Positions 11,729 to 50,403 of a stretch of 64,000 nucleotides of DNA are shown here, one piece after another (within the stretch, counting starts at the first letter, position 1; each line of letters opens with the position of its first letter). The stretch is from Deroplatys truncata (lineage: Eukaryota > Arthropoda > Insecta > Mantodea > Mantidae): NCBI GenBank assembly GCA_030765065.1, contig CM060978.1, positions 219,127,498 through 219,191,497 of the forward strand, in the 5' to 3' direction. The translations under genes were made by a program, and so were the position numbers. The notes under the pieces were generated by a model. It did no database searches. It was not told the DNA's origin and saw only the letters and a program-made list of their open reading frames with translations.

Positions 11729-11731
11729 TTA
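11716..11731 (-). promoter_or_regulatory. Probable -1 frameshift site at the gag-pol junction
   Basis: Gag ends ...GAA AAC TAA; the pol frame is open from the codon after a TAA at 11731-11729 and lies at -1. The overlap is only about 13 nt. GGAAAAC immediately before the gag stop resembles, but does not match, the canonical X XXY YYZ slippery heptamer. I did not identify a downstream pseudoknot. Stop-codon suppression is excluded because the frames differ. Confidence 0.55.
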
Positions 11732-13698
11732 TCGACACTATTTGGTGCTCCGCTAGTCTCTTCCACATTTCCCGCTCTCTGAGTTTGCCTATAGTTTCCT
11801 CTGTTTCCTCTAAAATGTCCCCGGGAAGGTCTCTCTCTCCTTTCGTTTCTTTCTGGGTCATTTTCGTCATACCTCTCTCCTATATCGCTTTCCCCTCGGT
11901 CAGAAAAATAATGTTCCCTGGATCTGTTTTCATTGTTTCTGCCTCTCCTATAGCTAAAACGGCCCCTGTATCTTGGTCTGGTTTGTATAGCATTTATGTG
12001 ATATTGGTTATCACCTTCCCTCCTGAAACGGTTATTTTGACAGTTCCTGTTCCCGGATTGAGGCACGTCGTTCCAGTATCTCTCTCTGGGGTTATAGTTC
12101 CCTCTCGCGTTTCCTCTCCAATTCGCATTCCTTGAATTATCCGGTAATGGTCGAACTGTATAGTTTTGTACGTGGTTCCTACTACTTGTCTCGAATGATG
12201 ATACCAACTCAATCAATTCGGGAATAGAATTTGGCTTCGCAATGAGTAGGTAATGGTGTATCCGTTCTGGATAATGTGGTACAATCATATTAATGAAATC
12301 CCTCTCGCTTATGGGTGGCTCGATTAGTCTACTACTCTGTGCTTTAGTTAGCAAATAATCTACCATGCTTAGGTTTCCGCGTTCATCGTACTTGCCATTA
12401 ACTAGGATAGATCTCACCTGGTTCTGAGTATTAGTACTCCAATACTTATTCAAAAATGCCCTTCTGAAATATTCAAAATTATTATTCTCCCCCAAAGTCA
12501 ATCTTACCCATTGGAGAACCCTTTGACGTAAACCTTTACGAACGATTAACATCTTTAGCTCGTCCGGAATCTGCTTCAAACGGAAATACTCCTCAAGGTC
12601 ATTTAGGTATTGTTTAGGATTATCAGCCGAATTTTCCTCGAAAGTAGGTACCCCTATCTCATTTAATAAATGGTAGTTTGCATTACTTGCATGGTTAGAT
12701 GTACATTGGTGCCCTGCATTGACATTATATGGGTCGGCAGCTGGACTTTGGCCTCCATTTGCCTCCCTAAAAGTGGTGCTAGTTTCACTGGGTGAGCTAT
12801 CATCACTCTGTCTCACACTTATCCCTAGTCTACCAATAGAGCGTTTTAACTCCTTTACACAATTTTCATGCTCTTCCACCCTCTTCACAATTTCATGATG
12901 ATTTGAGAGCTGTTCAGTCATTTTTGACGAAAGTTCATTCATCTTTCCCTGATCCTTTTCTAACACTATTCTAAATTCTTTGAACTCCCTTTGAATGTTA
13001 GATTCTAAGGTACTTTGTTTTTTTTCTAAAGAAACATTTACAGCTCTTAAGTCATCATCCAATTGTTCCTTTATGGCTAAGCTGGTAACACTTAATTCTG
13101 TTTCTACATCCTTCCTTAGTTTTTCTACATCGTTTCTTAGACATAGTTGTCCTGCCTGAATTTCTTGCACTACCATCCCTTGCTGACTGAATTTGGAGTC
13201 CAATTGACTTTGTAATCGGGTGACCTGTTCACCTAAATATTCCCTCATCTCCTGAGCTAATTCCCCTCTCATCTTCCTGTTTTCCTCTCTGACATATTCA
13301 CCTATCTGTATACTCTGCTCATTTAATTTCCCTTCCAAATTTTTATTTTGTTCACTCAAATTTCTTTTTGACTCCTTACTCAGCTCATTTAATTTCCCTT
13401 CTAAATTTTTAATTTGTTCACTCAAATTTCTTTTTGACTCCTTACTCTGCTCATCTATCTTTGCGCTCAAATGTTGAAGCAATATTAGCAGCTGGTTTTG
13501 ACCTGCGTCAATGACCTGCTCAATCGGTGATTGCCTTTCCCTAACTTCTACTTCAGCTGCACCCATATTTTCTCCATCTGTTGTTATGCTGACAATAGCC
13601 TCCCCATTCAGTTCTTCCAAATCTTCCCTTGACCTACTCATGGTTCCGTTAGCAAGTTCTACCTCCCTAGTAATGACTTTACCCCCTCTCAATAACAT
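11716..13698 (-). CDS. gag: Gag protein with coiled coil and RG-rich tail
   Basis: The frame is open from 13719; the first ATG is at 13698, which I prefer to the GTG codon at 13719. The protein is about 660 aa. Residues ~70-290 are a long charged coiled coil rich in K, E, Q and N. Residues ~357-511 match a retrotransposon capsid/gag domain (NPKQYLNDLEEYFRLKQIP, then QRVLQWVRL and FRRAFLNKYW). The tail (~515-640) is rich in arginine, glycine and asparagine, with repeated RG, RGN and RRG. No CCHC knuckle is visible, so nucleic-acid binding probably relies on the basic tail. A 66-bp tandem duplication (13317-13382 and 13383-13448) repeats one 22-residue coiled-coil unit. The stop is at 11718-11716. 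Confidence 0.92.
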   Translation of the reverse strand: MLLRGGKVITREVELANGTMSRSREDLEELNGEAIVSITTDGENMGAAEVEVRERQSPIEQVIDAGQNQLLILLQHLSAKIDEQSKESKRNLSEQIKNLEGKLNELSKESKRNLSEQNKNLEGKLNEQSIQIGEYVREENRKMRGELAQEMREYLGEQVTRLQSQLDSKFSQQGMVVQEIQAGQLCLRNDVEKLRKDVETELSVTSLAIKEQLDDDLRAVNVSLEKKQSTLESNIQREFKEFRIVLEKDQGKMNELSSKMTEQLSNHHEIVKRVEEHENCVKELKRSIGRLGISVRQSDDSSPSETSTTFREANGGQSPAADPYNVNAGHQCTSNHASNANYHLLNEIGVPTFEENSADNPKQYLNDLEEYFRLKQIPDELKMLIVRKGLRQRVLQWVRLTLGENNNFEYFRRAFLNKYWSTNTQNQVRSILVNGKYDERGNLSMVDYLLTKAQSSRLIEPPISERDFINMIVPHYPERIHHYLLIAKPNSIPELIELVSSFETSSRNHVQNYTVRPLPDNSRNANWRGNARGNYNPRERYWNDVPQSGNRNCQNNRFRREGDNQYHINAIQTRPRYRGRFSYRRGRNNENRSREHYFSDRGESDIGERYDENDPERNERRERPSRGHFRGNRGNYRQTQRAGNVEETSGAPNSVDNPEN

Positions 13699-13992
13699 GT
13701 GTTCACAAAACTGAGTCACTACTCTGCATGCCTTTTTGTTTGTTTTTGAATAAAAGTTCTAACCTGTATTTTTTTTCAATGTTAACTGATGCGTTCCGGG
13801 TTCGAATCCTGGTGAAGTTCTAGAAGCGATGTTCTCAGCTGTTTTGTTGTCCCACGTAGGTAGACTAGAAGTTCGCGTTGTAATTTTGTTCTGCTGTGCC
13901 CCTTTCCTCTGAAGATTCTTCGTCTGTTCGTTGTTTCCTAGTACTCCGTTTGAGTCGTTCTTCCTTTCGATCTCCACGTTATGGCGCCAGTT
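13699..13992 (-). other. 5' leader with primer-binding site
   Basis: Three bases inside the 5' LTR, the minus strand reads TGGCGCCATAACGTGG (13989-13974). TGGCGCC is the usual start of a primer-binding site for tRNA-Lys-type primers; the remainder does not match a tRNA I can name. The leader also contains a tRNA T-arm-like CCGGGTTCGAATCCTGG on the plus strand at about 13798-13814, without a box A. Confidence 0.65.
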
Positions 13993-15136
13993 TGCGGCGG
14001 TCACCTCCTCATCCGTTGCTGTTAGGCTTACCTTGACGCTTCTCCCGTTGCTTCCAGAAGTTCTCAGCGTGTTGGTTCTCTTCAATTTATCCTCGGCTAG
14101 CTGCAGTAATTTTTCTTAAACTATATGGGAGCATGGACTTATCCTCGGTAAAGGAAAACGTAGATCTCGGGTGGTGATATAGGAAGACATAGACTTGCTT
14201 TGTTTATGAAAATATGACACTGCCGTTTCTTTTTATTTAATTAACACTCGTAGTATACAAAACTAGTATTGCCGCTGTAAAATACTGTCCACCGCTGTTA
14301 AACTATGGCGCGGATATGAGACGAAGTTTAAATATTCTTATTGTCGCTTTAAGAGTAGCAGATCTTAGGTGTGTTGTTAGAACTATCTTGATTCCCTGTT
14401 TTGGCGCGATATCTCACACATCCTGCAGCATCTCTCCCTGACCACACATGACATAAACTGCCGAATAAAATGCAATACTAAGCTGACATTACAAAGCTGA
14501 CTTGATTCCTTTCTGGGCGCGATATCTCACGCATCCTGCAGCATCTCTCCCTGACTACACATTACCAAAACTGCCGCGAATTTTCCCCAAACAGATCCAT
14601 TTATAGTCTCAGGCTTCTGAGGCTGCTTCCTTTCCTATTGGTCCATTTTTAGCGCGACTCGACGCGTCTAACTATTTCGAATAAACTTTCAGGGATCTCA
14701 TTGGTCCAATTTTAATATAAATCGCGGCTTTTCCTACATTTACCGTTAAGGTTGTCTTTCTCACTCACTTGGTCACGGCGAATTATCAAATAATGGGACA
14801 AAGGCTCTACACCCTCGCTGTAGGAATAATAGCACAGCGACCGGAGAGAGGTAATAAAACTAGGTTTTCTGCCTTCGAAAGCACTATTCCTGTAGCTAAA
14901 ACTTTCCCTCGTGGACAGTATTTTAACATAGCGCTTAAATTATTTACATTAAACCATTTATAACTCTACTAATATTAATAACCTAGATAGATACATAATG
15001 TTAAATCACCCTTCTTAAAATATACAAGCAGTATGAGAAAAAGATATTTACATAATACGATTTAACATCACTAAAAGTTAATTAATAAGTTATCTGTAAT
15101 TATAGTTCTTGGGCTCGGCCTAGAGTTGCCGTTTCA
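13993..15136 (-). repeat. 5' LTR of the gypsy-type element
   Basis: Same length as the left LTR and apparently identical over the stretches I compared, including the small open frame at 14769-14963. It carries the element's promoter for gag-pol (minus strand). The minus-strand AATAAA lies at 14237-14232. Confidence 0.95.
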
Positions 15137-15140
15137 AAGG

Positions 15141-18838: not shown

Positions 18839-19892
18839 ACTCCTTCAATAAATATCTACTTCACATAATACTAAAATAAAGTAGAAAAGTAATCTACTAA
18901 ATTTAAAGACCTGGATTTTTTTTTGTTTATAAAATATTAATATTCTATTTTGTATAGTAGGCATCAAGAATTAGTGTATACTACCCAAAAATTCAATAAC
19001 CAATTTCACCGGTAATATGTTTTGAGGTTACATTCAAAAGTAACATTTTTTAGGAAAAGATCTGTATATGTGAACAGCGTTATTCAAAAACGAAAAATTG
19101 GATAAATACCAAACACATTTTTTTTTATTTTATCAGAAAAACATAATCAGTTCTGGTATTGGTTTGCAGACTTGTTACAAATTTTATCTGGCTCGGCTGT
19201 TCAATTTTTCTACCACTTCTTCACTCTGTTCATCCAAACAATTTCTTCGTCGAAATTCCTTCCATGTATATAGAAGTCCATGAAAGGCGGTGAAAGAATA
19301 GTTAGTGTAGCCTATTTTGACCAACATTCTTTTCTTCTTCATTAAACCGCAGCTCATGGCCAGCCTTTTAAATGGATAAAAGCGCATTCTGCTCCCATGA
19401 GATCAAATCCGCATTCTCGAAGCGAGATAAGTTATATGGTTAATATTTCGGCAGCTTCTTCACGTAACTTAGGTTTTCTGTCAAGTTTAGAAACAGAAAA
19501 GGCCTCTTTTTGGGGTGAAACTATAAGGATTGTGGTGGTACATCATAAATTCTACAATCAATTACAGTCAATGTTCAAGACCGACTGAATATACATTGTG
19601 ATCCCAGCGCTGACTGTTTCTGCGGCTACGCACAACTGTTTCTCTGTTCAAACAGAGAAAACTGCTATAAATGTACATCGGGCAACCTATGGCCATATCA
19701 CACGCAGTAGCTCTGCCCATTTTTGCTCCAATGAGTCATTTTATAGTTTGTTGATCACCCCGGCCTGTAAATACATGCATATGCAAGACACTTCCCATTA
19801 TTTCGGGAACGTTGTGTCTGAAGCTATTCTTCCAGCCAAAGTATTGTTTTAGCACTATCAGTAAGTCATGGCGCTCATTGATTAAATGGCTC
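18839..19892. other. No gene; contains an old family A fragment
   Basis: Positions ~18920-19130 resemble the 3' part of family A on the minus strand ('ttgtatagtaggcat', 'ttcaccggtaatatgttttgag', 'gtgaacagcgttattcaaaaacg'), strongly diverged. The rest shows no coding frame with recognisable motifs. Confidence 0.4.
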
Positions 19893-19975
19893 TTACTCAC
19901 CGAGTAAGATAGCTCTGGCGGTAACGTCTGTGGACAGCTTTCCGGGTGTCCTGGGTTCAAATTCCTCGGGCCGAC
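19893..19975 (+). mobile_element. tRNA-SINE head, split by the palindromic element
   Basis: Box A (ATAGCTCTGGCGGTAACG) and box B (GGGTTCAAATTCC) of a tRNA-derived SINE. It breaks off at GCCGAC (19970-19975); the body resumes at 37059 (TCGTGGTTTCTCTCAGTCGCC), matching the body of the intact SINE at 49887-50387. It therefore marks the insertion site of the 17-kb element. Confidence 0.75.
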
Positions 19976-20170
19976 AGTAGAATAAGAATGCCGATTCTGA
20001 AACAAAGGAAGATGCCGACAAGCGATAAAGTTCTTTGATCTATGCCGCTAGCCCCGCCCCCTCCCTTTGTGTGCTTACATGCCGCCAGGTCTCGTGTCGT
20101 TAGGCCCCGCCCCCTCTCGCTTTGTGTGCTTACCTAATGCCGACAGTGTCTGTGCTAACAGGTCCTACCC
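19976..20170 (+). repeat. Subterminal region with ATGCCG motifs and GC-rich tandem units
   Basis: ATGCCG occurs five times in about 160 bp (near 19985, 20010, 20042, 20079 and 20136), and the segment CCCCGCCCCCTC...TTTGTGTGCTTAC occurs twice about 54 bp apart. This is the usual place for binding sites of a mobilising enzyme. The mirror copy lies at about 36860-37052. Confidence 0.6.
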
Positions 20171-20410
20171 CCTCCCCAATGCGATCTACTGTGGCGTCAT
20201 GACTTGAGGGAATTGTTTTCTCGAGGCCTGCCGCCCCTCGGCAAATTAATTAGGTAATGTTCGTCAAACATTTTTTTTATGATTACTAAGGTCTGCAGAT
20301 TGCATCCTCGAGCAATTAAGTTTTTTGAATAATGAATTGTTGACTGGAGCGTGAGTATAAGTAGTCTGCTCACGGTAACAGTCTGTCATGTAATGAAACA
20401 CTGCAGCCTT

Positions 20411-20706
20411 CTTCTTCTATCTGGGCAAAGCGCTTGTCCATTAGCTGAACATGTTAGACGCTTTCAACACATTAATAGGCTTTTAAGTTTACATTCCGGA
20501 TCTGTTTACATACATTAGCGATCAACGACATACTTCCGTCTGGAGGTAACGGTGACACACATTAGCTGACCCGTTAGACGCTTTCACTCCATTAGCGAAC
20601 AAGAGCCCGGCATGTAATGAAAAAACCCGTAACCTACTTCTGTCTGATGGTAACGGTGACCTCTATTAGCTGACATCTTTAGACCCTTTCACCTCATTAG
20701 CGAACA
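20411..20706 (+). repeat. ~104-bp imperfect tandem repeats upstream of the arm gene
   Basis: Three units share ATTAGCTGAC..., GTTAGACGCTTTCA... and CATTAGCGAACAA, clearest at 20531-20604 and 20635-20706 with a degraded unit at 20411-20478. They lie directly upstream of the TATA box at 20771. Mirror copy at about 36322-36618. Confidence 0.6.
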
Positions 20707-20770
20707 ATGCCAGTAATTGTTTTCCTAAGTGCTCTACAATCTCTCACCACTTCAGCTTTAGTGGGGGAAT

Positions 20771-20780
20771 TATATAAAAG
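20771..20780 (+). promoter_or_regulatory. TATA box of the left-arm gene
   Basis: TATATAAAAG, 109 bp before the predicted start codon at 20880, with no other ATG in frame between. Mirror at about 36248-36257. Confidence 0.55.
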
Positions 20781-20879
20781 CAGCATCTTCTCCAATGATT
20801 TTCACAGTATCGTAAGAACACTGCGATCTAAGCACTCTGCAAACTTTATTCTTTCAACGTGGAAATTACATCGAACAGC

Positions 20880-22432
20880 ATGTCTGGTAAGTTGTATCAC
20901 CAATTCATCTTCATTAAAAAGTTAACTTATTACTTAGTACATTTAACTTTTATTTGCGTTCTTGTTTTTAATGACGGCTCTTTATTTGTAAATAGCTGAG
21001 TATTCTAAAAGTTAATAGCTAGACAGTTGAATTTTTTCTGAAATGTGAACAGTTTAGTTAAGTATTCATTTTAGACAAGCTTATTCTACATTTAATAGCT
21101 AACTGCGCGAATTCTCAAAAAATGTGAACAATTTAGTTAAGTATTCATCTTGTTGAGAAATTATTATTCCAGATATTTAAATACAGGGTTTCACAGAGTG
21201 AATTATATTCCTTTCTAGACAAAATACAATTACTTGATTACCCTACGATTCGAATAAATAATGTTCTGTATAAATATTCTTCCGAGGGTAAGCGGCGGTA
21301 TTCGATCCGGGGACTTCATGTTTGCATGCATTGATCGAACATTCATCAGTTAATGTTTCATTCCTCTTGTGCATTTTATTTAGTAAAAACTTCCAGTCTG
21401 TTTCCATCACATTAAAAATTAACGTTTTTGCTTTAGAATATTACAAAAAGTCTGTTGCGCGAATCATTCACTCTAACAAAGTAAATGTTTACATTATATT
21501 AAAACATTTAAATCGGAAAATATAGTACTTAATGAACTTCATTAGTGAATCAGAACCTCAATTATATTTACACATATTATCATTTTTATTATTATATTAT
21601 ACAGAAAAAGTTAATAATTTTGTAACTTTCAAATAAATGAAATTTAGTTATGCAACACATTCTCTAATAAAGAATATGTTTTTTCTCTTCCTAATGCAGA
21701 AAGTTTGACATCTCAACTTAACACATTGGCTGAGGGTAGCATTTACCCGACCGTTCAAAGACTACAAGATCTTCAGCCAGAGGAGCCTTATAATATAAAA
21801 TCCATAAGAAAAATTGATACGAGATACGGTGCTAGAGTGGTTGCGGTTTTAGACAATAATCAAGTGTTTCTTCCGACAAGATATTCAACCCTAACAAGCC
21901 AACAGTTGGATGAAATGCCAGGAAAGTTTCAAATGGTATATCATGGTGTAGTACCATCCGGCAAGTTTAAGACATGTAAATTGTCTTTTCTTCCTGTTAA
22001 GGTTTGTAGAAATAATTCAGCTATCCTTTCAAAGCTTCATTTAGAGTTACATTTGTTGAGTTTATAAATTCACACTTCCTAGGATAACATTCATCTAAAG
22101 TATACATCACTGTGTAAATAACGCTTAGGATGTAGTCTGGGCGAGGACCTGCAGAAAGAAGTTTAATAGTCTATTCACTGATTCTTTACCTCAAAGCAGA
22201 TACCTACAGCAAGTTGCAAATAATTTCCATTAGGGTAGCAGTTGTCAAAGCATGCATCACTGTATTAAAACAAATATGTGTAAATAATGTCTAGATTGTA
22301 GTCTGAGTGATTTCGTGCAGAAAGAAGTTTAATACCACATTGCATTGATTCTCCGCATCGAAGTATATACCTACAACAAGCTACAAATAATGTGAATGTT
22401 TGTTACAGGAATGTCCAGATGAATGTAAATGA
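20880..22432 (+). CDS. Spliced small gene of the palindromic element (left arm)
   Basis: Three predicted exons: 20880-20886 (ATGTCTG, then donor GTAAGT), 21700-22001 (after CTAATGCAG; ends AAG before GTTTGT) and 22409-22432 (after TTGTTACAG; ends TGA). Phases agree at both junctions and give a 110-aa protein. Without the second splice the frame runs on to a stop at 22067. The protein is small and beta-rich in appearance, with DTRYGARVVAVLD and VFLPTRYSTL as its best-conserved-looking core; this resembles small OB-fold, single-strand DNA-binding-like proteins, but that is only an impression and I cannot name the family. A candidate AATAAA is at 22713. It is the only intact-looking gene of the element and may serve its replication. 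Confidence 0.6.
22085..22400 (+). repeat. Imperfect tandem duplication overlapping intron 2
   Basis: Two units of about 150-165 bp share CATCACTGT, GTAAATAA, TGTAGTCTG and GCAGAAAGAAGTTTAATA. They lie inside the predicted intron 2 of the arm gene. Mirror at about 34629-34944. Confidence 0.6.
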
Positions 22433-22919
22433 AGAGGAAGAATGAGATAGCTTAAAACAACACGAACAGAAATGTGATAGGAACATCCTCAACATGAAGA
22501 ATTGCAGCACCGTCCAGCATGGAACATTCGAGTGTGTAGAATATAGCAATAATATATAAATTATGTACTCATTATTACTGCTATACATGCCAATACCATT
22601 GATTTCATAAATAATTTCATAATTGTTTAAAGAAGAATGTATTATCTTAAAACATTGATGCTACATGAAATCTAAACAAAAAAGTTATTGAACTATTACT
22701 GAAAGAGACCTGAATAAATGGGAATCTAGAAGCCAGAACCATCTTAATATTGGACTGTATGATATGAGGTGTATAAAAAGATTAATAAAAATGAGGGCTA
22801 TGTAATATAAACAACATTTATTTTTTATAAAACATTTTCCTATTACATTCCTTCACAAAAAAAAACCCGAACATATTTCCCAAAGACAAAAGTGATAGTC
22901 TAGACCTTCTAAACATACA

Positions 22920-23830
22920 GTTATAGGGGGAAAGGATGCTCTCCTGAAACATTAGGTCTCTAGACAGAAGCATTTATAGGGGAGAGATAGGGAATACCAG
23001 GGCTGATGCTAGGCTAGTCAGATGCTAAAGGAGGGAGGGATATGCTTTATACGAGAGAGATAGGGAATACAAGGAAAGATGCTATACTAAACAGGACTTG
23101 AAGGGTAGAATATGAGCGATATAGCGAACCGAGGAGAGGTATTAGGATAGGAGTTTTGAATGATAGAGTAGGCGTTTATATGCGAGAGATAGGGAATACG
23201 AGGGTCGATGCTAGGCTAGACGGTGTTGAATGAGGGAATGCATCTTATATGAGAGAGGTAGGGGAATATGAGGAGACGTGTTAGGCTAGACAGGGTTTGA
23301 GGTGTGGAATATGCGTTTATATGGGAAAGATAGGGGAAACGTGTACATATAATAGGCTATACAGATGCTGAAGGACGGGAATATAGGCTTATACGGGAGA
23401 GATAGGGAAATACGAGGAGAGGTGCTAGACTAGACTGATGCTGAAGGAGGAGAGGATACTCTTTATACGGAAGAAATAGGGAATACGAGGAGAGGTACTA
23501 GAAGGGTAGAATATAGCGTTTTTATATGAGGGAGCTAGCAAACCGAGGAGAGGTATTAGGCATGGAGGTCTGAATGAGAGATTATACGTCTATATGAGAA
23601 AAGATAGGGAAAACGAAGGTAGGTGCTAGGTTGAGAGAGTCTTCAAGGAGGAAAATGCATTTATATGAGAGCGGTAGGGCATACGAGGAGAGGTGCTAGT
23701 CTAGACATGGTTTGAGGATTAGAGTATACGTTTATATGGGAGAAATGGAAAACGGGAGAGATACAAGGATAGACAGAGATTGAAGGAGGAGGAATGTAGG
23801 TTTATACTGTAATATAGAGAGTAATTCGAT
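22920..23830 (+). repeat. ~70-75-bp minisatellite, about 12-13 units (left arm)
   Basis: Degenerate units with the recurring elements GAGAGATAGGGAATACGAGG, AGAGGTGCTAGGCTAGAC and GGAATATGCGTTTATA. Non-coding. Mirror copy at about 33198-34108. Confidence 0.75.
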
Positions 23831-24491
23831 TATAAAACTTTCCTCATCCAGCCTTACAACACTTTTATATACTTATTTTCTAAACCTTACAAACTTTATA
23901 TTTGTTAAACAGTAGTGCGCGAGACGGAGAGGGACAAACAGTATATCGGTTTACAGTGAAGTATACGTCCTAACCTATTCCCACCTTGTTTGTTCTGGAT
24001 CTTCTCATTGTCTATCATCATCTAACGTAACCACGTAACAAGACGTAACACAGGAAATCATACATATGGCACATTAATAAAAAAAATAAATAAATAAAGG
24101 TATATATAATGAAACATAAACAAGTAGACAGAGGGTCATTGATACACAGAAAACCAGGAGTTGTATGTACTGAGACCATAGATTAGTATAGGCAAACAAC
24201 AAAGAAGTGAATTTATAGTGTAAATAGCCTAATATTTTCAAATATTATTATAGTCTAAAAGTATATAACTTAATTATGTATCGAGTATTGAGAAATAAAC
24301 GTTATTCATTATTCACTAATCTCAGATCACTGCAATTGTATTGAATCAATTCACAATTGTTAATGCCATTCAACTTTCATTTGTCTCTGATACATAAACA
24401 AATTGCAAAATGGAGAAGGACGAAAGTAATAAAAAGACTCAGGCAGCAAATTTTAAGAAAGAAGAGAAAGATATATGACCGACATTGTTTT

Positions 24492-25080
24492 AGAACACAA
24501 ATTAGTGTTGAAAATAAAATGACTGATAGCTCTGCTAAGCGTAAGGAAGAGACATGGAAATAAATTGCAAATGAGTACAATTCTAGGAAGATCATCCAAT
24601 GTGAATGAAAATCCCTGAAATGATATTATGAGAACATAAAGAAAAGAATGAAGCAAGCAAATGTCATTGACAAGGTACGATTGTACAAAACTGTAGGCGT
24701 ATGTATGTACCGCCTTTCTTAGATAATAGTAGCCAAATAACAATTGTTGCTCTTCTATTCAATCGCCAATGAGTTTAATGATGAAGTTGGATTCCATTCA
24801 GAAGTAATCACCACAGTGAAGGACATTGAAATAGTAAATCCAGTTCCAACATGTCATTCAGCAATTTTAATAACAGGTAAGGAATTTGAAAAAAGAGAAA
24901 GTGTAAAGGTTGCGTTTGCAGTTCCCATACAGAACTTTCAACTCCATTGCCTGAAAAGAACAAAGATGGCATAAGAGAGGGTTTTTATGAGAGGAGGCTT
25001 GAGTGTTTGGAAGAAGAGTACACAGTGAAAATGAAGATCTTGAAATTGGAACTAGAAATGAAAGAATCTCAGAAAAATTA
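24492..25080 (+). pseudogene. Myb/SANT-like DNA-binding protein pseudogene (left arm)
   Basis: One frame reads KRKEETWK, stop, IANEYNSRKIIQCE, stop, KSLK, stop, YYENIKKRMKQAN, which is the layout of the Myb/SANT-like domain of many insect regulator-like proteins (W...IA.EYN...SLK..YEN.KKR.K). Further on, after more breaks, FYERRLECLEEEYTVKMKIL and LELEMKESQKN form the usual C-terminal coiled coil of that family, ending at a TAA near 25080. At least three in-frame stops show it is dead. The mirror copy carries the same stops. It may be a host gene fragment captured by the element or the relic of an accessory protein. Confidence 0.65.
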
Positions 25081-26169
25081 AGCGTTGTTAATAACTTATA
25101 CAAACATAAATATATTACAAAAAAGTAATGAAACAGGCAAGGAATAATATGGATAAAGAAACTGTTAAGCAGATCTACTATAGCACATTTTAATTTGCAA
25201 ACAACGATTACATTTCAAAATGTTGGTATTCGGACGATCCAGTGTTAATTATGATAGGCACAGAAGTGTTTCTCAAAATCTAAAAACACATAGCAATTTA
25301 AGATATCTATGTATTAATCTTTAGAGAGAAACTGTACTTTTACTCAAAGTGTTTAATAACTTTTAAAGCTAGAGAATGTCATTTAAGGTTTCCACATCCC
25401 AAAAAATTCAGATTTCTCAGAATTGCGCAATTTTCATTACACGCTGTTATTTATTTTCGTAACTATTCAAAAAATTGCATACGTGAGCTTTTTTCCCTTA
25501 ATTGCATTCAGTTAATCATACCTTCCATAATACTTATACATTGCCTACGAGCTCAGGAGAAACATGGCAAGGCTACTTAATACTCCAAAAGTATCCCTTA
25601 AATTACTGGGGGATTCCTGCGAACAGGAGTATTTCGGAAATGTTTAATATCACAAAAATATTTATTTAAAATAAATTGTATTTATCTAATAAGATATTCA
25701 TTTCTTCACCAGTAAGTTATTCAGATTCCCTGGAAATAAAGAAAACTTTATAGAACTTTTGATACGCATTTTATTTATTATACAAATATAGCTATTTTTC
25801 AGAAAATCAAATATAAGGAATCGCAGTCACTGGCATCTTTAAAGAGCGTCCAACTCCAGAATGAAATATAGCATTTATCTGGCTTTTCTTATGATGTTAC
25901 GCTGTTCACAGAGATTTACGAGTTGAAAGACTAAAAACACGTAAACATGTATATGCACAAGCGCGAGCGCACGCGCACACACACACATATGTACGAAGCT
26001 CTTTGCTTTCGTTTACAGGACCTCAGAACATGCATTACGCTGCGTGTCCCTAGCGTTTCCAGCTCTTGAATCGTTCCAGCTAGTGGAATGTCTCTACCAT
26101 CTTCATGTCAACGATCTGTTACTCCGAATTAAAGTTTGGTGATCTGTATAGACCTGTACAACATGCATT

Positions 26170-28365
26170 ACGCTATGTAACAACATGATCACGCTATGTA
26201 ACAACATGATCACGCTATGTAACAACATGATCACACTATGTAACAACATGATCACGCTATGTAACAACCTGATCACGCTATGTAACAACATGATCACGCT
26301 ATGTAACAACATGATCACGCTATGTAACAACCTGAGCACTCTATGTAACAACATGATCACGCTATGTAACAACATGATCACGCTATGTAACAACATGATC
26401 ACGCTATGTAACAACATGATCACGCTATGTAACAGACTCATCACGCTATGTAACAACATGATCATGCTATGTAACAACATGATCATGCTATGTAACAACC
26501 TGAGCACGCTATGTAACAACATGATCACGCTATGTAACAACATGAACACGCCATGTAACAATACGATCACGCTATGTAACAACATGTTCACGCTATGTAA
26601 TAACATGATCACGCTATGTAACAAACTGATCACGCTATGTAACAACATGATCACGCTATGTAACAACATGATCACGCTATGTAACAACATGAACACGGTA
26701 TGTAACAACATGAACACGCTATGTAACAATACGATCACGCTATGTAACAACATGTTCACGCTATGTAACAACATGAACACGCTATGTAACAACATGAACA
26801 CGCTATGTAACAACATGAACACGTTATGTAACAACCTGATCACGCTATGTAACAACCTGATCACGGTATGTAACAACCTGATCACGCTATGTAACAACAT
26901 GATCACGCTATGTAACAAACTGATCACGCTATGTAACAACATGATCACGCTATGTAACAACATGATCACGCTATGTAACAACATGATCACGCTATGAAAC
27001 AACCTGATTACGTTATGTAACAACCTGATCACGCTATGTAACAACATGATCACGCTATGTAACAACCTGATCACGCTATGTAACAACACGATCACGCTAT
27101 GTAACAACATGAACACGCTATGTAACAACCTGATCACGCTATGTAACAACATGTTCACGCTATGTAACAACACGATCACGCTATGTAACAACATGAACAC
27201 GCTATGTAACAACCTGAGCACGCTATGTAACAACATGTTCACGCTATGTAACATCATGAACACGCTATGTAACAATACGATCATGCTATGTATCAACCTG
27301 ATCACGCTATGTAACAACACGATCACGCTATGTAACAACACGATCACGCTATGTAACAACCTGATCACGCTATGAAACAACATGTTCACGCTATGTAACA
27401 ACATGATCACGCTATGTAACAACATGATCACGCTATGTAACAACCTGATTACGCAATGTAACAATATGATCACGCTATGTAACAACCTGATCACGCTATG
27501 TAACAACCTGATCACGCTATGTAACAACATGTTCACGCTATGTAACAACACGATCACGCTATGTAACAACATGAACACGCTATGTAACAACATGATCACG
27601 CTATGTAACAACATGTTCACGCTATGTAACAACACGATCACGCTATGTAACAACATGAACACGCTATGTAACAACCTGAGCACGCTATGTAACAACATGA
27701 TCATGCTATGTAACATCATGAACACACTATGTAACAATACGATCATGCTATGTAACAACCTGAGCACGCTATGTAACAACCTGATCACGCTATGTAACAA
27801 CATGATCACGCTATGTAACAACCTGATCATGCTATGTAACAACATGAACACGCTATGTAACAACATGAACACGCTATGTAACAACCTGATCACGCTATGT
27901 AACAACATGATCACGCTATGTAACAACCTGATCACGCTATGTAACAACTTGATCACGCTATGTAACAACAGATCACACTATGTAACAACATGATCACGCT
28001 ATGTAACAACCTGAGCACGCTATGTAACAACAGCATGACGCTATGTAACAACACGATCACGCTATGTTACAACCTGATCACGCTATGTAACAACATGTTC
28101 ACGCTATGTAACAACATAATCACGCTATGTAACAACCTGATTACGCTATGTAACAACCTGATCACTCTATGTAACAACATGATCACGCTATGTAACAACC
28201 TGATCACGCCATGTAACAACATGTTCACGCTATGTAACAACACTATCACGCTATGTAACACCCTGATTACGCTATGTAACAACCCTATCACGCTATGTAA
28301 CAACTTGATCACGCTATGTAACAATCTGATCACGCTATGTAACAACATGATCACGCTATGTAAAT
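26170..28365 (+). repeat. 21-bp minisatellite, ~104 copies (left arm)
   Basis: Unit approximately ATCACGCTATGTAACAACMTG, with variants CTGATCACG, ATGTTCACG, ACGATCACG and CTGAGCACG. Because 21 is a multiple of three, several frames on both strands stay open for hundreds of codons (heptapeptides such as LLHSVIM and ITLCNNM); these are repeat artefacts, not proteins. The right arm holds ~101 copies (28731-30862). Confidence 0.95.
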
Positions 28366-28507
28366 AGGGTGGACCATTTAAGTTGAGGCTATACAATATA
28401 TCCAAAACTAAGCGTTGTAGAAAGAAATGTCTTTAATAAAACTTGATTGATATTATGACGAAAGTAAATACCGCTAGCCGTATTTTGTTTGGAGGACGTT
28501 ATGAGGG

Positions 28508-28580
28508 TCATTTCAGGGTCTTTTTAAATGGGACCCTAATTGTAGGTTCCCATTTAAAAAAATAAATTGACCCAAAATGA
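28508..28580. other. Centre of the palindrome, hairpin loop
   Basis: The arms continue almost to the midpoint: AAATGGGACC and GGTTCCCATTT pair around a loop of only a few bases (TAATTGTA region, ~28535-28545). Outside it the pairing includes GGGTC/GACCC with small mismatches. There is no unique spacer or gene at the centre. Confidence 0.8.
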
Positions 28581-28730
28581 CCCTCATAACGGCCTCCAAA
28601 CAAAACACGACTAGCGGCATTTACTTTCGTCATAATATCAATCAAGTTTTATTAAAGACATTTCTTTCTACAACGCTTAGTTTTGGATATATTGTATAGC
28701 CTCAACTTAAATGGTCCACCCTATTTACAT

Positions 28731-30862
28731 AGCGTGATAATGTTGTTACATAGCGTGATCAGATTGTTACATAGCGTGATCAAGTTGTTACATAGCGTGA
28801 TAGGGTTGTTACATAGCGTAATCAGGTTGTTACATAGCGTGATTATGTTGTTACATAGCGTGAACATGTTGTTACATAGCGTGATCAGGTTGTAACATAG
28901 CGTGATTATGTTGTTACATAGCGTGAACATGTTGTTACATAGCGTGATCAGGTTGTAACATAGCGTGATCGTGTTGTTACATGGCGTGATAGTGTTGTTA
29001 CATAGCGTAATCAGGTTGTTACATAGCGTGATTATGTTGTTACATAGCGTGAACATGTTGTTACATAGCGTGATCAGGTTGTAACATAGCGTGATCGTGT
29101 TGTTACATAGCGTCATGCTGTTGTTACATAGCGTGCTCAGGTTGTTACATAGCGTGATCATGTTGTTACATAGTGTGATCTGTTGTTACATAGCGTGATC
29201 AAGTTGTTACATAGCGTGATCAGGTTGTTACATAGCGTGATCATGTTGTTACATAGCGTGATCAGGTTGTTACATAGCGTGTTCATGTTGTTACATAGCG
29301 TGTTCATGTTGTTACATAGCATGATCAGGTTGTTACATAGCGTGATCATGTTGTTACATAGCGTGATCAGGTTGTTACATAGCGTGCTCAGGTTGTTACA
29401 TAGCATGATCGTATTGTTACATAGTGTGTTCATGATGTTACATAGCATGATCATGTTGTTACATAGCGTGCTCAGGTTGTTACATAGCGTGTTCATGTTG
29501 TTACATAGCGTGATCGTGTTGTTACATAGCGTGAACATGTTGTTACATAGCGTGATCATGTTGTTACATAGCGTGTTCATGTTGTTACATAGCGTGATCG
29601 TGTTGTTACATAGCGTGAACATGTTGTTACATAGCGTGATCAGGTTGTTACATAGCGTGATCAGGTTGTTACATAGCGTGATCATATTGTTACATTGCGT
29701 AATCAGGTTGTTACATAGCGTGATCATGTTGTTACATAGCGTGATCATGTTGTTACATAGCGTGAACATGTTGTTTCATAGCGTGATCAGGTTGTTACAT
29801 AGCGTGATCGTGTTGTTACATAGCGTGATCGTGTTGTTACATAGCGTGATCAGGTTGATACATAGCATGATCGTATTGTTACATAGCGTGTTCATGATGT
29901 TACATAGCGTGAACATGTTGTTACATAGCGTGCTCAGGTTGTTACATAGCGTGTTCATGTTGTTACATAGCGTGATCGTGTTGTTACATAGCGTGAACAT
30001 GTTGTTACATAGCGTGATCAGGTTGTTACATAGCGTGTTCATGTTGTTACATAGCGTGATCGTGTTGTTACATAGCGTGATCAGGTTGTTACATAGCGTG
30101 ATCATGTTGTTACATAGCGTGATCAGGTTGTTACATAACGTAATCAGGTTGTTTCATAGCGTGATCATGTTGTTACATAGCGTGATCATGTTGTTACATA
30201 GCGTGATCATGTTGTTACATAGCGTGATCAGTTTGTTACATAGCGTGATCATGTTGTTACATAGCGTGATCAGGTTGTTACATACCGTGATCAGGTTGTT
30301 ACATAGCGTGATCAGGTTGTTACATAACGTGTTCATGTTGTTACATAGCGTGATCATGTTGTTACATAGCGTGATCATGTTGTTACATAGCGTGATCAGT
30401 TTGTTACATAGCGTGATCATGTTGTTACATAGCGTGAACATGTTGTTACATAGCGTGATCGTATTGTTACATGGCGTGTTCATGTTGTTACATAGCGTGA
30501 TCATGTTGTTACATAGCGTGCTCAGGTTGTTACATAGCATGATCATGTTGTTACATAGCATGATCATGTTGTTACATAGCGTGATGAGTCTGTTACATAG
30601 CGTGATCATGTTGTTACATAGCGTGATCATGTTGTTACATAGCGTGATCATGTTGTTACATAGCGTGATCATGTTGTTACATAGAGTGCTCAGGTTGTTA
30701 CATAGCGTGATCATGTTGTTACATAGCGTGATCATGTTGTTACATAGCGTGATCAGGTTGTTACATAGCGTGATCATGTTGTTACATAGTGTGATCATGT
30801 TGTTACATAGCGTGATCATGTTGTTACATAGCGTGATCATGTTGTTACATAGCGTAATGCAT
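28731..30862 (-). repeat. 21-bp minisatellite, ~101 copies (right arm)
   Basis: Inverted counterpart of 26170-28365. Mirror pairing shows the right arm lost net 126 bp (six units) in one part (26103-27968 versus 29183-30922) and gained 63 bp (three units) near the centre. Copy number is thus the main difference between the arms. Confidence 0.95.
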
Positions 30863-31946
30863 GTTGTACAGGTCTATACAGATCACCAAACTTTAATTCG
30901 GAGTAACAGATCGTTGACATGAAGATGGTAGAGACATTCCACTAGCTGGAACGATTCAAGAGCTGGAAACGCTAGGGACACGCAGCGTAATGCATGTTCT
31001 GAGGTCCTGTAAACGAAAGCAAAGAGTTTCGTACATATGTGTGTGTGTGTGCGCGTGCGCTCGCGCTTGTGCATATACATGTTTACGTGTTTTTAGTCTT
31101 TCAACTCGTAAATCTCTGTGAACAGCGTAACATCATAAGAAAAGCCAGATAAATGCTATATTTCATTCTGGAGTTGGACGCTCTTTAAAGATGCCAGTGA
31201 CTGCGATTCCTTATATTTGATTTTCTGAAAAATAGCTATATTTGTATAATAAATAAAATGCGTATCAAAAGTTCTATAAAGTTTTCTTTATTTCCAGGGA
31301 ATCTGAATAACTTACTGGTGAAGAAATGAATATCTTATTAGATAAATACAATTTATTTTAAATAAATATTTTTGTGATATTAAACATTTCCGAAATACTC
31401 CTGTTCGCAGGAATCCCCCAGTAATTTAAGGGATACTTTTGGAGTATTAAGTAGCCTTGCCATGTTTCTCCTGAGCTCGTAGGCAATGTATAAGTATTAT
31501 GGAAGGTATGATTAACTGAATGCAATTAAGGGAAAAAAGCTCACGTATGCAATTTTTTGAATAGTTACGAAAATAAATAACAGCGTGTAATGAAAATTGC
31601 GCAATTCTGAGAAATCTGAATTTTTTGGGATGTGGAAACCTTAAATGACATTCTCTAGCTTTAAAAGTTATTAAACACTTTGAGTAAAAGTACAGTTTCT
31701 CTCTAAAGATTAATACATAGATATCTTAAATTGCTATGTGTTTTTAGATTTTGAGAAACACTTCTGTGCCTATCATAATTAACACTGGATCGTCCGAATA
31801 CCAACATTTTGAAATGTAATCGTTGTTTGCAAATTAAAATGTGCTATAGTAGATCTGCTTAACAGTTTCTTTATCCATATTATTCCTTGCCTGTTTCATT
31901 ACTTTTTTGTAATATATTTATGTTTGTATAAGTTATTAACAACGCT

Positions 31947-32535
31947 TAATTTTTCTGAGATTCTTTCATTTCTAGTTCCAATTTCAAGATCTTCATTTTC
32001 ACTGTGTACTCTTCTTCCAAACACTCAAGCCTCCTCTCATAAAAACCCTCTCTTATGCCATCTTTGTTCTTTTCAGGCAATGGAGTTGAAAGTTCTGTAT
32101 GGGAACTGCAAACGCAACCTTTACACTTTCTCTTTTTTCAAATTCCTTACCTGTTATTAAAATTGCTGAATGACATGTTGGAACTGGATTTACTATTTCA
32201 ATGTCCTTCACTGTGGTGATTACTTCTGAATGGAATCCAACTTCATCATTAAACTCATTGGCGATTGAATAGAAGAGCAACAATTGTTATTTGGCTACTA
32301 TTATCTAAGAAAGGCGGTACATACATACGCCTACAGTTTTGTACAATCGTACCTTGTCAATGACATTTGCTTGCTTCATTCTTTTCTTTATGTTCTCATA
32401 ATATCATTTCAGGGATTTTCATTCACATTGGATGATCTTCCTAGAATTGTACTCATTTGCAATTTATTTCCATGTCTCTTCCTTACGCTTAGCAGAGCTA
32501 TCAGTCATTTTATTTTCAACACTAATTTGTGTTCT
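31947..32535 (-). pseudogene. Myb/SANT-like pseudogene (right arm)
   Basis: Mirror of 24492-25080 with the same stops and the same broken frames (the open segments at 32464-32670 and 32053-32283 are identical to their left-arm partners). Decay therefore preceded duplication of the arm, or the arms have been homogenised since. Confidence 0.65.
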
Positions 32536-33197
32536 AAAACAATGTCGGTCATATATCTTTCTCTTCTTTCTTAAAATTTGCTGCCTGAGTCTTTTTATTA
32601 CTTTCGTCCTTCTCCATTTTGCAATTTGTTTATGTATCAGAGACAAATGAAAGTTGAATGGCATTAACAATTGTGAATTGATTCAATACAATTGCAGTGA
32701 TCTGAGATTAGTGAATAATGAATAACGTTTATTTCTCAATACTCGATACATAATTAAGTTATATACTTTTAGACTATAATAATATTTGAAAATATTAGGC
32801 TATTTACACTATAAATTCACTTCTTTGTTGTTTGCCTATACTAATCTATGGTCTCAGTACATACAACTCCTGGTTTTCTGTGTATCAATGACCCTCTGTC
32901 TACTTGTTTATGTTTCATTATATATACCTTTATTTATTTATTTTTTTTATTAATGTGCCATATGTATGATTTCCTGTGTTACGTCTTGTTACGTGGTTAC
33001 GTTAGATGATGATAGACAATGAGAAGATCCAGAACAAACAAGGTGGGAATAGGTTAGGACGTATACTTCACTGTAAACCGATATACTGTTTGTCCCTCTC
33101 CGTCTCGCGCACTACTGTTTAACAAATATAAAGTTTGTAAGGTTTAGAAAATAAGTATATAAAAGTGTTGTAAGGCTGGATGAGGAAAGTTTTATAA

Positions 33198-34108
33198 TCG
33201 AATTACTCTCTATATTACAGTATAAACCTACATTCCTCCTCCTTCAATCTCTGTCTATCCTTGTATCTCTCCCGTTTTCCATTTCTCCCATATAAACGTA
33301 TACTCTAATCCTCAAACCATGTCTAGACTAGCACCTCTCCTCGTATGCCCTACCGCTCTCATATAAATGCATTTTCCTCCTTGAAGACTCTCTCAACCTA
33401 GCACCTACCTTCGTTTTCCCTATCTTTTCTCATATAGACGTATAATCTCTCATTCAGACCTCCATGCCTAATACCTCTCCTCGGTTTGCTAGCTCCCTCA
33501 TATAAAAACGCTATATTCTACCCTTCTAGTACCTCTCCTCGTATTCCCTATTTCTTCCGTATAAAGAGTATCCTCTCCTCCTTCAGCATCAGTCTAGTCT
33601 AGCACCTCTCCTCGTATTTCCCTATCTCTCCCGTATAAGCCTATATTCCCGTCCTTCAGCATCTGTATAGCCTATTATATGTACACGTTTCCCCTATCTT
33701 TCCCATATAAACGCATATTCCACACCTCAAACCCTGTCTAGCCTAACACGTCTCCTCATATTCCCCTACCTCTCTCATATAAGATGCATTCCCTCATTCA
33801 ACACCGTCTAGCCTAGCATCGACCCTCGTATTCCCTATCTCTCGCATATAAACGCCTACTCTATCATTCAAAACTCCTATCCTAATACCTCTCCTCGGTT
33901 CGCTATATCGCTCATATTCTACCCTTCAAGTCCTGTTTAGTATAGCATCTTTCCTTGTATTCCCTATCTCTCTCGTATAAAGCATATCCCTCCCTCCTTT
34001 AGCATCTGACTAGCCTAGCATCAGCCCTGGTATTCCCTATCTCTCCCCTATAAATGCTTCTGTCTAGAGACCTAATGTTTCAGGAGAGCATCCTTTCCCC
34101 CTATAACT
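33198..34108 (-). repeat. ~70-75-bp minisatellite (right arm)
   Basis: Mirror of 22920-23830 with the same order of variant units. Confidence 0.75.
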
Positions 34109-34596
34109 GTATGTTTAGAAGGTCTAGACTATCACTTTTGTCTTTGGGAAATATGTTCGGGTTTTTTTTTTTGTGAAGGAATGTAATAGGAAAATGTTTT
34201 ATAAAAAATAAATGTTGTTTATATTACATAGCCCTCATTTTTATTAATCTTTTTATACACCTCATATCATACAGTCCAATATTAAGATGGTTCTGGCTTC
34301 TAGATTCCCATTTATTCAGGTCTCTTTCAGTAATAGTTCAATAACTTTTTTGTTTAGATTTCATGTAGCATCAATGTTTTAAGATAATACATTCTTCTTT
34401 AAACAATTATGAAATTATTTATGAAATCAATGGTATTGGCATGTATAGCAGTAATAATGAGTACATAATTTATATATTATTGCTATATTCTACACACTCG
34501 AATGTTCCATGCTGGACGGTGCTGCAATTCTTCATGTTGAGGATGTTCCTATCACATTTCTGTTCGTGTTGTTTTAAGCTATCTCATTCTTCCTCT

Positions 34597-36148
34597 TCAT
34601 TTACATTCATCTGGACATTCCTGTAACAAACATTCACATTATTTGTAGCTTGTTGTAGGTATATACTTCGATGCGGAGAATCAATGCAATGTGGTATTAA
34701 ACTTCTTTCTGCACGAAATCACTCAGACTACAATCTAGACATTATTTACACATATTTGTTTTAATACAGTGATGCATGCTTTGACAACTGCTACCCTAAT
34801 GGAAATTATTTGCAACTTGCTGTAGGTATCTGCTTTGAGGTAAAGAATCAGTGAATAGACTATTAAACTTCTTTCTGCAGGTCCTCGCCCAGACTACATC
34901 CTAAGCGTTATTTACACAGTGATGTATACTTTAGATGAATGTTATCCTAGGAAGTGTGAATTTATAAACTCAACAAATGTAACTCTAAATGAAGCTTTGA
35001 AAGGATAGCTGAATTATTTCTACAAACCTTAACAGGAAGAAAAGACAATTTACATGTCTTAAACTTGCCGGATGGTACTACACCATGATATACCATTTGA
35101 AACTTTCCTGGCATTTCATCCAACTGTTGGCTTGTTAGGGTTGAATATCTTGTCGGAAGAAACACTTGATTATTGTCTAAAACCGCAACCACTCTAGCAC
35201 CGTATCTCGTATCAATTTTTCTTATGGATTTTATATTATAAGGCTCCTCTGGCTGAAGATCTTGTAGTCTTTGAACGGTCGGGTAAATGCTACCCTCAGC
35301 CAATGTGTTAAGTTGAGATGTCAAACTTTCTGCATTAGGAAGAGAAAAAACATATTCTTTATTAGAGAATGTGTTGCATAACTAAATTTCATTTATTTGA
35401 AAGTTACAAAATTATTAACTTTTCTGTATAATATAATAATAAAAATGATAATATGTGTAAATATAATTGAGGTTCTGATTCACTAATGAAGTTCATTAAG
35501 TACTATATTTTCCGATTTAAATGTTTTAATATAATGTAAACATTTACTTTGTTAGAGTGAATGATTCGCGCAACAGACTTTTTGTAATATTCTAAAGCAA
35601 AAACGTTAATTTTTAATGTGATGGAAACAGACTGGAAGTTTTTACTAAATAAAATGCACAAGAGGAATGAAACATTAACTGATGAATGTTCGATCAATGC
35701 ATGCAAACATGAAGTCCCCGGATCGAATACCGCCGCTTACCCTCGGAAGAATATTTATACAGAACATTATTTATTCTAATCGTAGGGTAATCAAGTAATT
35801 GTATTTTGTCTAGAAAGGAATATAATTCACTCTGTGAAACCCTGTATTTAAATATCTGGAATAATAATTTCTCAACAAGATGAATACTTAACTAAATTGT
35901 TCACATTTTTTGAGAATTCGCGCAGTTAGCTATTAAATGTAGAATAAGCTTGTCTAAAATGAATACTTAACTAAACTGTTCACATTTCAGAAAAAATTCA
36001 ACTGTCTAGCTATTAACTTTTAGAATACTCAGCTATTTACAAATAAAGAGCCGTCATTAAAAACAAGAACGCAAATAAAAGTTAAATGTACTAAGTAATA
36101 AGTTAACTTTTTAATGAAGATGAATTGGTGATACAACTTACCAGACAT
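34597..36148 (-). CDS. Spliced small gene of the palindromic element (right arm)
   Basis: Mirror of the gene at 20880-22432: exons 36148-36142, 35329-35028 and 34620-34597, with the same donors, acceptors and phases. The first intron differs by a single base in length (812 versus 813). The encoded exon-2 protein is identical to the left copy. The TATA box is at about 36257-36248. The two copies are transcribed toward the centre, facing each other. Both therefore look equally functional or equally untested. Confidence 0.6.
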
Positions 36149-37058
36149 GCTGTTCGATGTAATTTCCACGTTGAAAGAATAAAGTTTGCAGAGTGCTTAG
36201 ATCGCAGTGTTCTTACGATACTGTGAAAATCATTGGAGAAGATGCTGCTTTTATATAATTCCCCCACTAAAGCTGAAGTGGTGAGAGATTGTAGAGCACT
36301 TAGGAAAACAATTACTGGCATTGTTCGCTAATGAGGTGAAAGGGTCTAAAGATGTCAGCTAATAGAGGTCACCGTTACCATCAGACAGAAGTAGGTTACG
36401 GGTTTTTTCATTACATGCCGGGCTCTTGTTCGCTAATGGAGTGAAAGCGTCTAACGGGTCAGCTAATGTGTGTCACCGTTACCTCCAGACGGAAGTATGT
36501 CGTTGATCGCTAATGTATGTAAACAGATCCGGAATGTAAACTTAAAAGCCTATTAATGTGTTGAAAGCGTCTAACATGTTCAGCTAATGGACAAGCGCTT
36601 TGCCCAGATAGAAGAAGAAGGCTGCAGTGTTTCATTACATGACAGACTGTTACCGTGAGCAGACTAGTTATACTCACGCTCCAGTCAACAATTCATTATT
36701 CAAAAAACTTAATTGCTCGAGGATGCAATCTGCAGACCTTAGTAATCATAAAAAAAATGTTTGACGAACATTACCTAATTAATTTGCCGAGGGGCGGCAG
36801 GCCTCGAGAAAACAATTCCCTCAAGTCATGACGCCACAGTAGATCGCATTGGGGAGGGGGTAGGACCTGTTAGCACAGACACTGTCGGCATTAGGTAAGC
36901 ACACAAAGCGAGAGGGGGCGGGGCCTAACGACACGAGACCTGGCGGCATGTAAGCACACAAAGGGAGGGGGCGGGGCTAGCGGCATAGATCAAAGAACTT
37001 TATCGCTTGTCGGCATCTTTCTTTGTTTCAGAATCGGCATTCTTATTCTACTGCCGAC

Positions 37059-37140
37059 CAATCTGTCTTTCCTTTCTTCTTCGTGGTTTCTCTCAGTCGC
37101 CAAGGTGAACACTGGATTGTATATTTAATACCACTATCCA
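37059..37140 (+). mobile_element. SINE body downstream of the palindromic element
   Basis: TCGTGGTTTCTCTCAGTCGCC...GGTGAACACTGG corresponds to TCGTAGCTTTCCCCTGGTCGCC...GCAAATGCCGAG in the intact SINE at 49887-50387, and continues the head at 19893-19975. Its true 3' end is not clear. Confidence 0.6.
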
Positions 37141-38420
37141 AAGTAGTAAAAATGAAAATAGAGGTAATAGCGAATGCTCTGCCATCTATCCACAAATAAT
37201 GAAAGTAGGTACACAGCATGGCACCCCAATGTCATCTGCTCGACACGTGTAAAAGCAGAGATGCAGTGGCCCAATGCTAAGCTCTCTAAGGACACGTGTC
37301 GAAGCTGCCATCTGCCGTCACAGAAAGAGCTACAGTTGCCTAGCGCTAAGGCATCTGTGGACACGTGGTACAGAGATGAGACATAGAAGGCACACACCGA
37401 TTCACAGGTATCTCCTAGCAGAGCGTTTGCGATTTGGCCACGAATTTAAAGCGAGTAAAATAAGTAGAGAGGGAAAAAATAGCAACATTTCAGTTGTATA
37501 TGAAAGCTGGGCTGAAATCCATGGTTATGTTTCCAGTATTTAAATGTTAAGCAACATTCACTTCATTCGCAGTGCCCTTCGCTCTGTTAATCCAGGTTTA
37601 TCAACCAACTACGTGGTGTATTGCATGTCTCGAAGTATTGGACTACCGAAAAATTATTTAAAAGTACTCTGTTTTATCTGATAACATAATAAACATAATA
37701 AAAGACACTACACGACATCTTAATTACTTGGCAGTTAATTTCACCGTTATATTTCCTAGATCTGCAAAGAGGAATAGTTAATTAGAAAAGCCAAAATTTT
37801 TAACACCGTCGTCGACATCATCATCATTATTATTATCTCCTTGTATTAGGTATAGGTTTGAAGCCCTGTTCCAGCGTGAATTCACCAACTTTTTATATTT
37901 CAGTCAATTTTATTGTGCTTTAGTTTGGCCTACCATCGTACCAACGTTATATAGCATATTTTTTTCTCCATTTTCTTTACTTTCCTTCTGTGTTATCGTT
38001 CACGTAATATGTGTTTAATGAATCTCATGTGTATTTCCTTGATATTTTCCCGGATAATCCATAAACTTTACAGAAGTTAAATTTTAGTTGTATGTATTTC
38101 TATTACGTTCTTTCTCTTTAGTGCTAAATTCCATTTTTAATTGCTAAATAAATAATATTGATATTGAGAGCACCTCATCAAAACCTAAGAGAAATAATTT
38201 ATTCTAAGCTCTTTTTTTATCCACATATTCACCCTTTTTATACTTTAGCTAGATATATAAATAAAATGGGCAACTTGTAAAACTTTAATTTCTAAAATTA
38301 TTGTTGTGAGTCAATATTATTTCGTATTCTAAATCTCTTCTTCTTCAATTTATAAACTTTCTGATTTATTCAGCCTTAGGTGCCACGCCGATTCTTTGAT
38401 ATCTAGCCATCTACTTGTGT
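37141..38420. other. No gene; short tandem repeat near 37230-37380
   Basis: GACACGTGT recurs about every 65-70 bp (near 37241, 37291 and 37359) beside GCTAAG and CAGAGATG, suggesting three decayed tandem units. The rest is AT-rich without recognisable coding frames. Confidence 0.4.
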
Positions 38421-49870: not shown

Positions 49871-49886
49871 TACACTATATGCCGGC

Positions 49887-50387: not shown

Positions 50388-50403
50388 TACACTATATGCC
50401 GGC

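Follow-up and report, generated by a model that had tools for sequence, protein, structure and literature searches.

A large family of end-to-end palindromic mobile elements in the mantid Deroplatys truncata, with arms that match within but not between elements and may be renewed through a hairpin

A palindrome of 17,077 bp, made of mirror arms from end to end, occupies positions 19976-37052 of a 64,000-nucleotide stretch of the Deroplatys truncata (Mantodea, Mantidae) genome (GenBank assembly GCA_030765065.1, contig CM060978.1, positions 219,127,498 to 219,191,497 of the forward strand; hereafter the window). This palindrome is a member of a large mobile-element family of the same genome. Partner arms within an element are equal, whereas arms of different elements are not, and inherited asymmetry is confined to the innermost bases, where it is found in both orientations. 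Both the large family and this pattern of arm equality go beyond the initial annotation of the window. Inheritance through a hairpin is the reading best supported by the sequence comparisons: we give a probability of about 0.6 to a non-autonomous element that would use a Polinton/Maverick-type integrase and whose second arm would be recopied from an ~8.5-kb half through a hairpin in each round.

The palindrome of the window and its insertion site

The left arm runs on the forward strand from AGTAG to the centre (19976..28540), and the right arm (28541..37052, reverse strand) mirrors it as far as its CTACT end, with 97.9% identity over the aligned 8.33 kb. The differences between them are concentrated almost wholly in a 21-bp minisatellite, which counts about 105 units in the left arm (26158-28363) and about 102 in the right arm (28725-30867); the arms minus this minisatellite show 4 mismatches and 3 small indels in 6.19 kb. 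The stretch separating the aligned arm blocks (28364..28724) is itself an imperfect palindrome, down to an asymmetric core near 28535-28546. The arm alignment and this palindromic spacer bear out the 17.1-kb near-perfect palindrome of two ~8.5-kb inverted arms claimed in the initial annotation, and its insertion as a unit with a 6-bp duplication is confirmed by exact copies of GCCGAC on both sides (19970..19975 and 37053..37058).

The proposed target, a short interspersed nuclear element (SINE), is backed in part. The left flank matches the SINE at 49861-50420 (score 56.4, the best of 100 shuffles reaching 42.4), and the two flanks, once joined, align over the insertion junction with the ~50-kb copy as well as with an opposite-strand copy within 63.0-63.4 kb, the join having no shuffle control in either case, but the right flank alone is not significant (score 43.6, whereas its 100 shuffles reach up to 76.9). 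Neither the duplication nor the evidence for a family depends on the SINE match.

A large family in the same genome

The genome (4.29 Gb in 818 contigs) was searched with the first 400 bp of the element, and the best 40 of 3324 candidates, which were scored, fall into 16 pairs that face inward, plus 8 ends with no partner. The elements compared here are the window palindrome and 10 of the 15 other pairs (E1-E10; 149 bases between the halves of E3 are unread), with the pairs C16:260.8M, C9:99.4M, C14:93.8M, C2:67.6M and C1:108.3M and the 8 unpaired ends standing outside this set of 11 whole elements. All ten other copies are mirror-armed, start with AGTAG at both ends and carry an exact 6-bp duplication each; the AGTAG...CTACT ends and the duplications, which the initial annotation had singled out for a search, thus recur in every copy read, and the duplications are exact and all different in 11/11 elements, window included. 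Arm-to-arm divergence, minisatellite excluded, ranges from 0.017 to 0.51% in the 11 elements, the highest value being that of E1, whose tandem array is one unit short on one arm. E4 is an internal deletion that has lost the inner left arm and the centre.

Two small genes of the family, described below, served as further queries. The 124-aa protein of the first gave, from the best 150 of 7174 candidates, 67 pairs spaced less than 30 kb apart, all of them inward-facing among the matches listed (67/67), and 16 unpaired matches, while the 156-aa protein of the second gave, from the best 150 of 7071 candidates, 66 pairs, all outward-facing among the matches listed (66/66), and 18 unpaired ones; 144/150 and 148/150 of the listed matches, respectively, are without a stop. 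Five pairs are common to both searches, so that the two lists together yield at least 128 different element-like pairs, a lower bound from the best 150 matches per query, 11 elements having actually been read. A degenerate 27-base end pattern occurs 1879 times genome-wide (reversed control: 0), and among its first 100 places, which were taken by chromosome order and so not picked by score, 71 are of the palindrome family's type, forming 32 pairs with 7 unpaired. These position-ordered pairs all face inward (32/32) at a median spacing of 17.0 kb, 27 of them between 14 and 20 kb, and all have the same end variant at both ends, which is the commonest variant in 28 pairs and a rarer one in 4. By extrapolation, the genome would hold several hundred elements if the share of the first 100 places holds elsewhere. 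We recognised no earlier description of such a family in the literature searched, a body of text in which subscription papers were mostly not included.

Arms and central tip

The nearest relative of each arm is its own partner. This holds for 22/22 arms over the 640 outer bp of the 11 elements, for 10/10 arms over 4.6 kb of the five type-A elements, where divergence is at most 0.17% within an element versus 0.55-1.54% between elements, and for 12/12 arms over 870 columns in the six type-B elements. Differences between partner arms are mostly private to one arm (18/20 in type A, 2/2 in type B and 6/8 over the 640 bp, the sets overlapping). Simple inheritance of both arms would leave old arm differences, of which hardly any are seen.

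Between the common blocks the elements differ, having either a gene-bearing cassette (the window palindrome, E2, E4, E7 and E8) or a layout with an ~415-bp tandem array (E1, E3, E5, E6, E9 and E10; the array was read out in E10 and is deduced from unit-length offsets in E1, E3 and E9), and this type is equal on both arms wherever both are readable. E7 is a mosaic: both of its arms combine the type-A gene with an outer end that clusters with those of type B. There are several versions of the outermost ~35 bp (19976..20011, forward strand, in the window palindrome), equal between partner arms of one element save single substitutions, and of the 102 sites that vary among the type-A left arms, 44 lie within the first 200 bp. 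As far as can be judged from such comparisons, the best match of each arm within its own element suggests multiplication through a hairpin.

At the centre, the same asymmetric bases are present up to 28 bp from the middle in 9/9 elements with a readable centre (that of E4 is lost and that of E5 was not located). The asymmetry is common to 8/9 elements at 46 bp, 6/9 at 60, 3/9 at 70 and 2/9 at 84, and past 84 bp from the centre it appears in single elements at a time. The core is oriented one way in four elements and the opposite way in five. This is the pattern expected of a mismatched hairpin tip, if each arm is copied from the other while the tip is exempt.

Polinton-like ends and the search for a helper

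Polintons/Mavericks are elements of 15-20 kb with terminal inverted repeats (TIRs) of some hundred bases and a gene set comprising PolB, integrase, protease, ATPase and capsid. Vertebrate Mavericks have ends of the form (AG)n, e.g. (AG)3, or (AGT)2, and 6-bp duplications, according to the available part of one account (PMC8097293), an end motif that the AGTAG of 11/11 elements and the AGTAGT of 5/11 fit. A 6-bp target duplication was found in 11/11 elements and in 6/7 pairs of a more diverged end type treated below. The palindrome family is like Polintons in its duplications, its AGT-repeat-like ends and its total size of 15-20 kb, but it is an inverted repeat throughout, and Polinton genes were not found in it. 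In six frames of the window arm 19976-26151, the sole Pfam match is a remnant of Myb_DNA-bind_5 (PF13873, E 0.00012; 24510..24656, forward strand, stops read as X), with no polymerase, integrase, protease, ATPase or capsid, and the longest open reading frame (ORF) besides the minisatellite in five other arms has 167 aa. Since PolB, integrase, protease, ATPase and capsid genes of its own were not found, we do not file the family as a Polinton proper. The ends and the 6-bp duplication fit the Polinton relationship considered in the initial annotation, which is here a putative one, no helper with the same ends having been found; integration is probably Polinton-like.

That the palindrome is a foldback-type element from a different DDE superfamily (Dada, IS3EU, Ginger or P/Galileo) seems quite improbable. 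Dada and IS3EU likewise make 6-bp duplications and Galileo has long, repetitive inverted repeats (PMC3573991), but AGTAG ends are found in none of these superfamilies by the parts of their descriptions at hand. By the same partial descriptions, Dada is without TIRs and inserts in small RNA genes, whereas here the whole element is an inverted repeat; IS3EU/GingerRoot makes 6-bp duplications but has TA..TA or TG..CA ends (TA..TA in IS3EU), not AGTAG...CTACT; and Ginger has TGT ends and target duplications of 4 or 5 bp, against AGTAG ends and 6-bp duplications here. All three were rejected.

PolB is present in the genome, with 152 matches from the best 76 of 11882 candidates, a good part of the listed matches having open frames near 1260-1315 codons. 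We infer a helper for the palindrome family. No PolB element was seen among 13 unpaired exact-end matches, at each of which 201 bp were read. Beside one PolB gene (C3:71462300-71464299) we noticed opposite-strand ORFs, with a short repeat between these ORFs and PolB; one of them looks dUTPase-like by eye, without a family search. A second multi-copy inverted repeat is also present in the genome (e.g. C3:104575545-104575745 and C12:231164855-231164970), with 86-bp flanks that are 97-100% identical and that, used as a query, gave 71 matches from the best 40 of 657 candidates, mostly divergent pairs about 90-140 bp apart. The core between these flanks starts with AGTAG and ends with CTACT, resembling the ends of the palindrome family, and its variable stretch differs among copies.

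Renewal through a hairpin or gene conversion

In the reading that we favour, the unit copied would be a single half of ~8.5 kb whose central tip forms a closing hairpin. Synthesis running round this hairpin, or fold-back priming there, would make the second arm anew and produce a palindromic inverted dimer, which would be integrated by a Polinton/Maverick-type integrase supplied in trans, the open ends of the dimer probably being replicated by a protein-primed PolB, also supplied in trans. A loop or a mismatched stem in the hairpin would let the tip escape renewal, and the two orientations of the tip would correspond to two ways of reading through it. More tentatively, and at somewhat less than even odds, the family may stand for a transposon class in which the genome amounts to one ~8.5-kb half, bears one hairpin telomere and enters the chromosome as an inverted dimer.

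Gene conversion keeps the arms of sex-chromosome palindromes equal, and a non-autonomous Polinton derivative with extremely long TIRs, whose arms were equalised after insertion by chromosomal gene conversion, would have the same look of equal arms and an unconverted tip. We consider this unlikely, as the arms of E1 and E9 still differ in array length by one or two ~415-bp units. The diverged end type provided a test set of seven pairs, compared over the outer ~140 bp of their ends, 38/40 scored matches of this type lying on contig C16 (707 of 4290 Mb), the query's own contig. These pairs are presumably older members of the family, judging from their divergence. Six of the seven have exact 6-bp duplications, and the two ends of each of these six differ by 4.3-7.2%, which speaks against continuing arm-to-arm repair; over this outer stretch, at least, equal arms do not seem to last as elements age.

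The exception among the seven (C16:492036849-492052779) has identical ends, and its flanking 10 bp are mirror images and not a direct duplication. Assemblers struggle with long palindromes, and these mirror-image flanks would suit an assembly artefact or a chromosomal inverted duplication, but for the family such an origin is hardly credible, given the exact duplications beside unrelated flanks in 11/11 elements, the private changes and array lengths of the arms, and the recurrence of this layout at over 100 places.

Several observations weigh against renewal through a hairpin. No unintegrated hairpin was seen, and for 2/20 arm differences over 4.6 kb and 2/8 over the 640 bp both states are present elsewhere. 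The partner end is still the nearest in 7/14 diverged ends (with one tie), the nearest otherwise being another element; one of the seven diverged pairs is without the 6-bp duplication, and their comparison covers the outer ~140 bp of the ends. Regarding the helper, 0/73 PolB places have any of the compared family gene matches and pairs within 40 kb (the 150 matches of the 156-aa protein and the 67 pairs of the 124-aa protein, its 16 unpaired matches left out), and one end variant, searched exactly, gave 42 matches, none beside the compared PolB places.

Genes and other features

The window palindrome shows no polymerase or integrase match in its arm outside the minisatellite, in line with the initial annotation, but the arms are not empty of genes: a small spliced gene is open in 10/10 type-A arms, with one amino-acid variant. 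Its predicted exon 1 (a start codon followed by a GTAAGT donor) and exon 2, which yield a protein of 124 aa in all, lie at 20880..20886 and 21700..22067 on the forward strand of the left arm, downstream of a TATA-box-like sequence recognised by eye (20771..20780, forward strand), and at 36142..36148 and 34962..35329 on the reverse strand of the right arm. Over its 375 bp, the gene has 1 silent and 1 replacement site in the five type-A left arms, where the intron has 7 variable sites in 813 bp and the rest 93 in 3392 bp; the sites in the gene are too few to prove selection. The protein of exon 2 found no match at E 0.001 in a protein search, none above the cut-off in Pfam and no relative in viral contigs, and a resemblance to an oligonucleotide/oligosaccharide-binding (OB) fold was dropped, the single-sequence structure prediction having a predicted local distance difference test score (pLDDT) of only 37 and being left unused.

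The second protein of the family, of 156 aa and encoded on the opposite strand, is zinc-finger-like by weak matches only and has one relative in the protein collection (40% identity, same length, E 1.4e-13). Its gene is present on both arms of E1, E3 and E5-E10 and on the sole complete arm of E4, and on neither arm of the window palindrome and E2. ORFs of 100-620 aa in the minisatellite were rejected as artefacts of the 21-bp period. The left arm further contains degenerate tandem repeats of ~70-73 bp (22970..23807, forward strand), with a mirror copy at about 33220-34054. Rfam gave 0 matches at gathering scores in window positions 19500-37500, and ARAGORN no tRNA gene within the window. Elsewhere in the window, an LTR (long terminal repeat) retrotransposon (6619-15138) has two 1146-bp direct repeats of 100% identity that flank ORFs of 1190 and 680 aa; it is probably very young, and its ORFs look gypsy-like by eye.

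Known systems and implications

Derivatives of the yeast linear plasmid pGKL1 reportedly include a hairpin plasmid and an inverted dimer (described, it is said, by Kikuchi et al. in 1985). The likeness would lie in the hairpin-closed half-genome, the palindromic dimer and the protein-primed polymerase of a helper; those derivatives are laboratory extrachromosomal molecules, whereas the present family is chromosomal and has target duplications, its putative hairpin being read from a sequence signature. Foldback elements and Galileo of Drosophila share very long, internally repetitive inverted arms with the palindrome family (for Galileo, PMC3573991). They differ from it in superfamily, ends and duplication. 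We know of no equality of the two arms within each element as a feature of Foldback elements or Galileo. Parvovirus-type hairpin replication is similar in its hairpin tips, mismatches and two orientations, whereas the palindrome family has 8.5-kb arms and integrated copies with duplications, and no related gene was found.

If the second arm is indeed recopied from one template in each round, a change in one arm, be it a cassette or a terminal sequence, would be either doubled or lost, and the terminal 20-35 bp, which change fast, would act as a tag for recognition by the helper, exchangeable in one step. The family also places many long palindromes, which are fragile DNA, in one genome. With its arms renewed in each round and the tip spared, a large chromosomal family that is a palindrome over its whole length would open hairpin replication of a eukaryotic transposon to tests on sequence alone, and would reveal by what means a parasite of Polinton-like elements maintains the match of both its ends to the helper.

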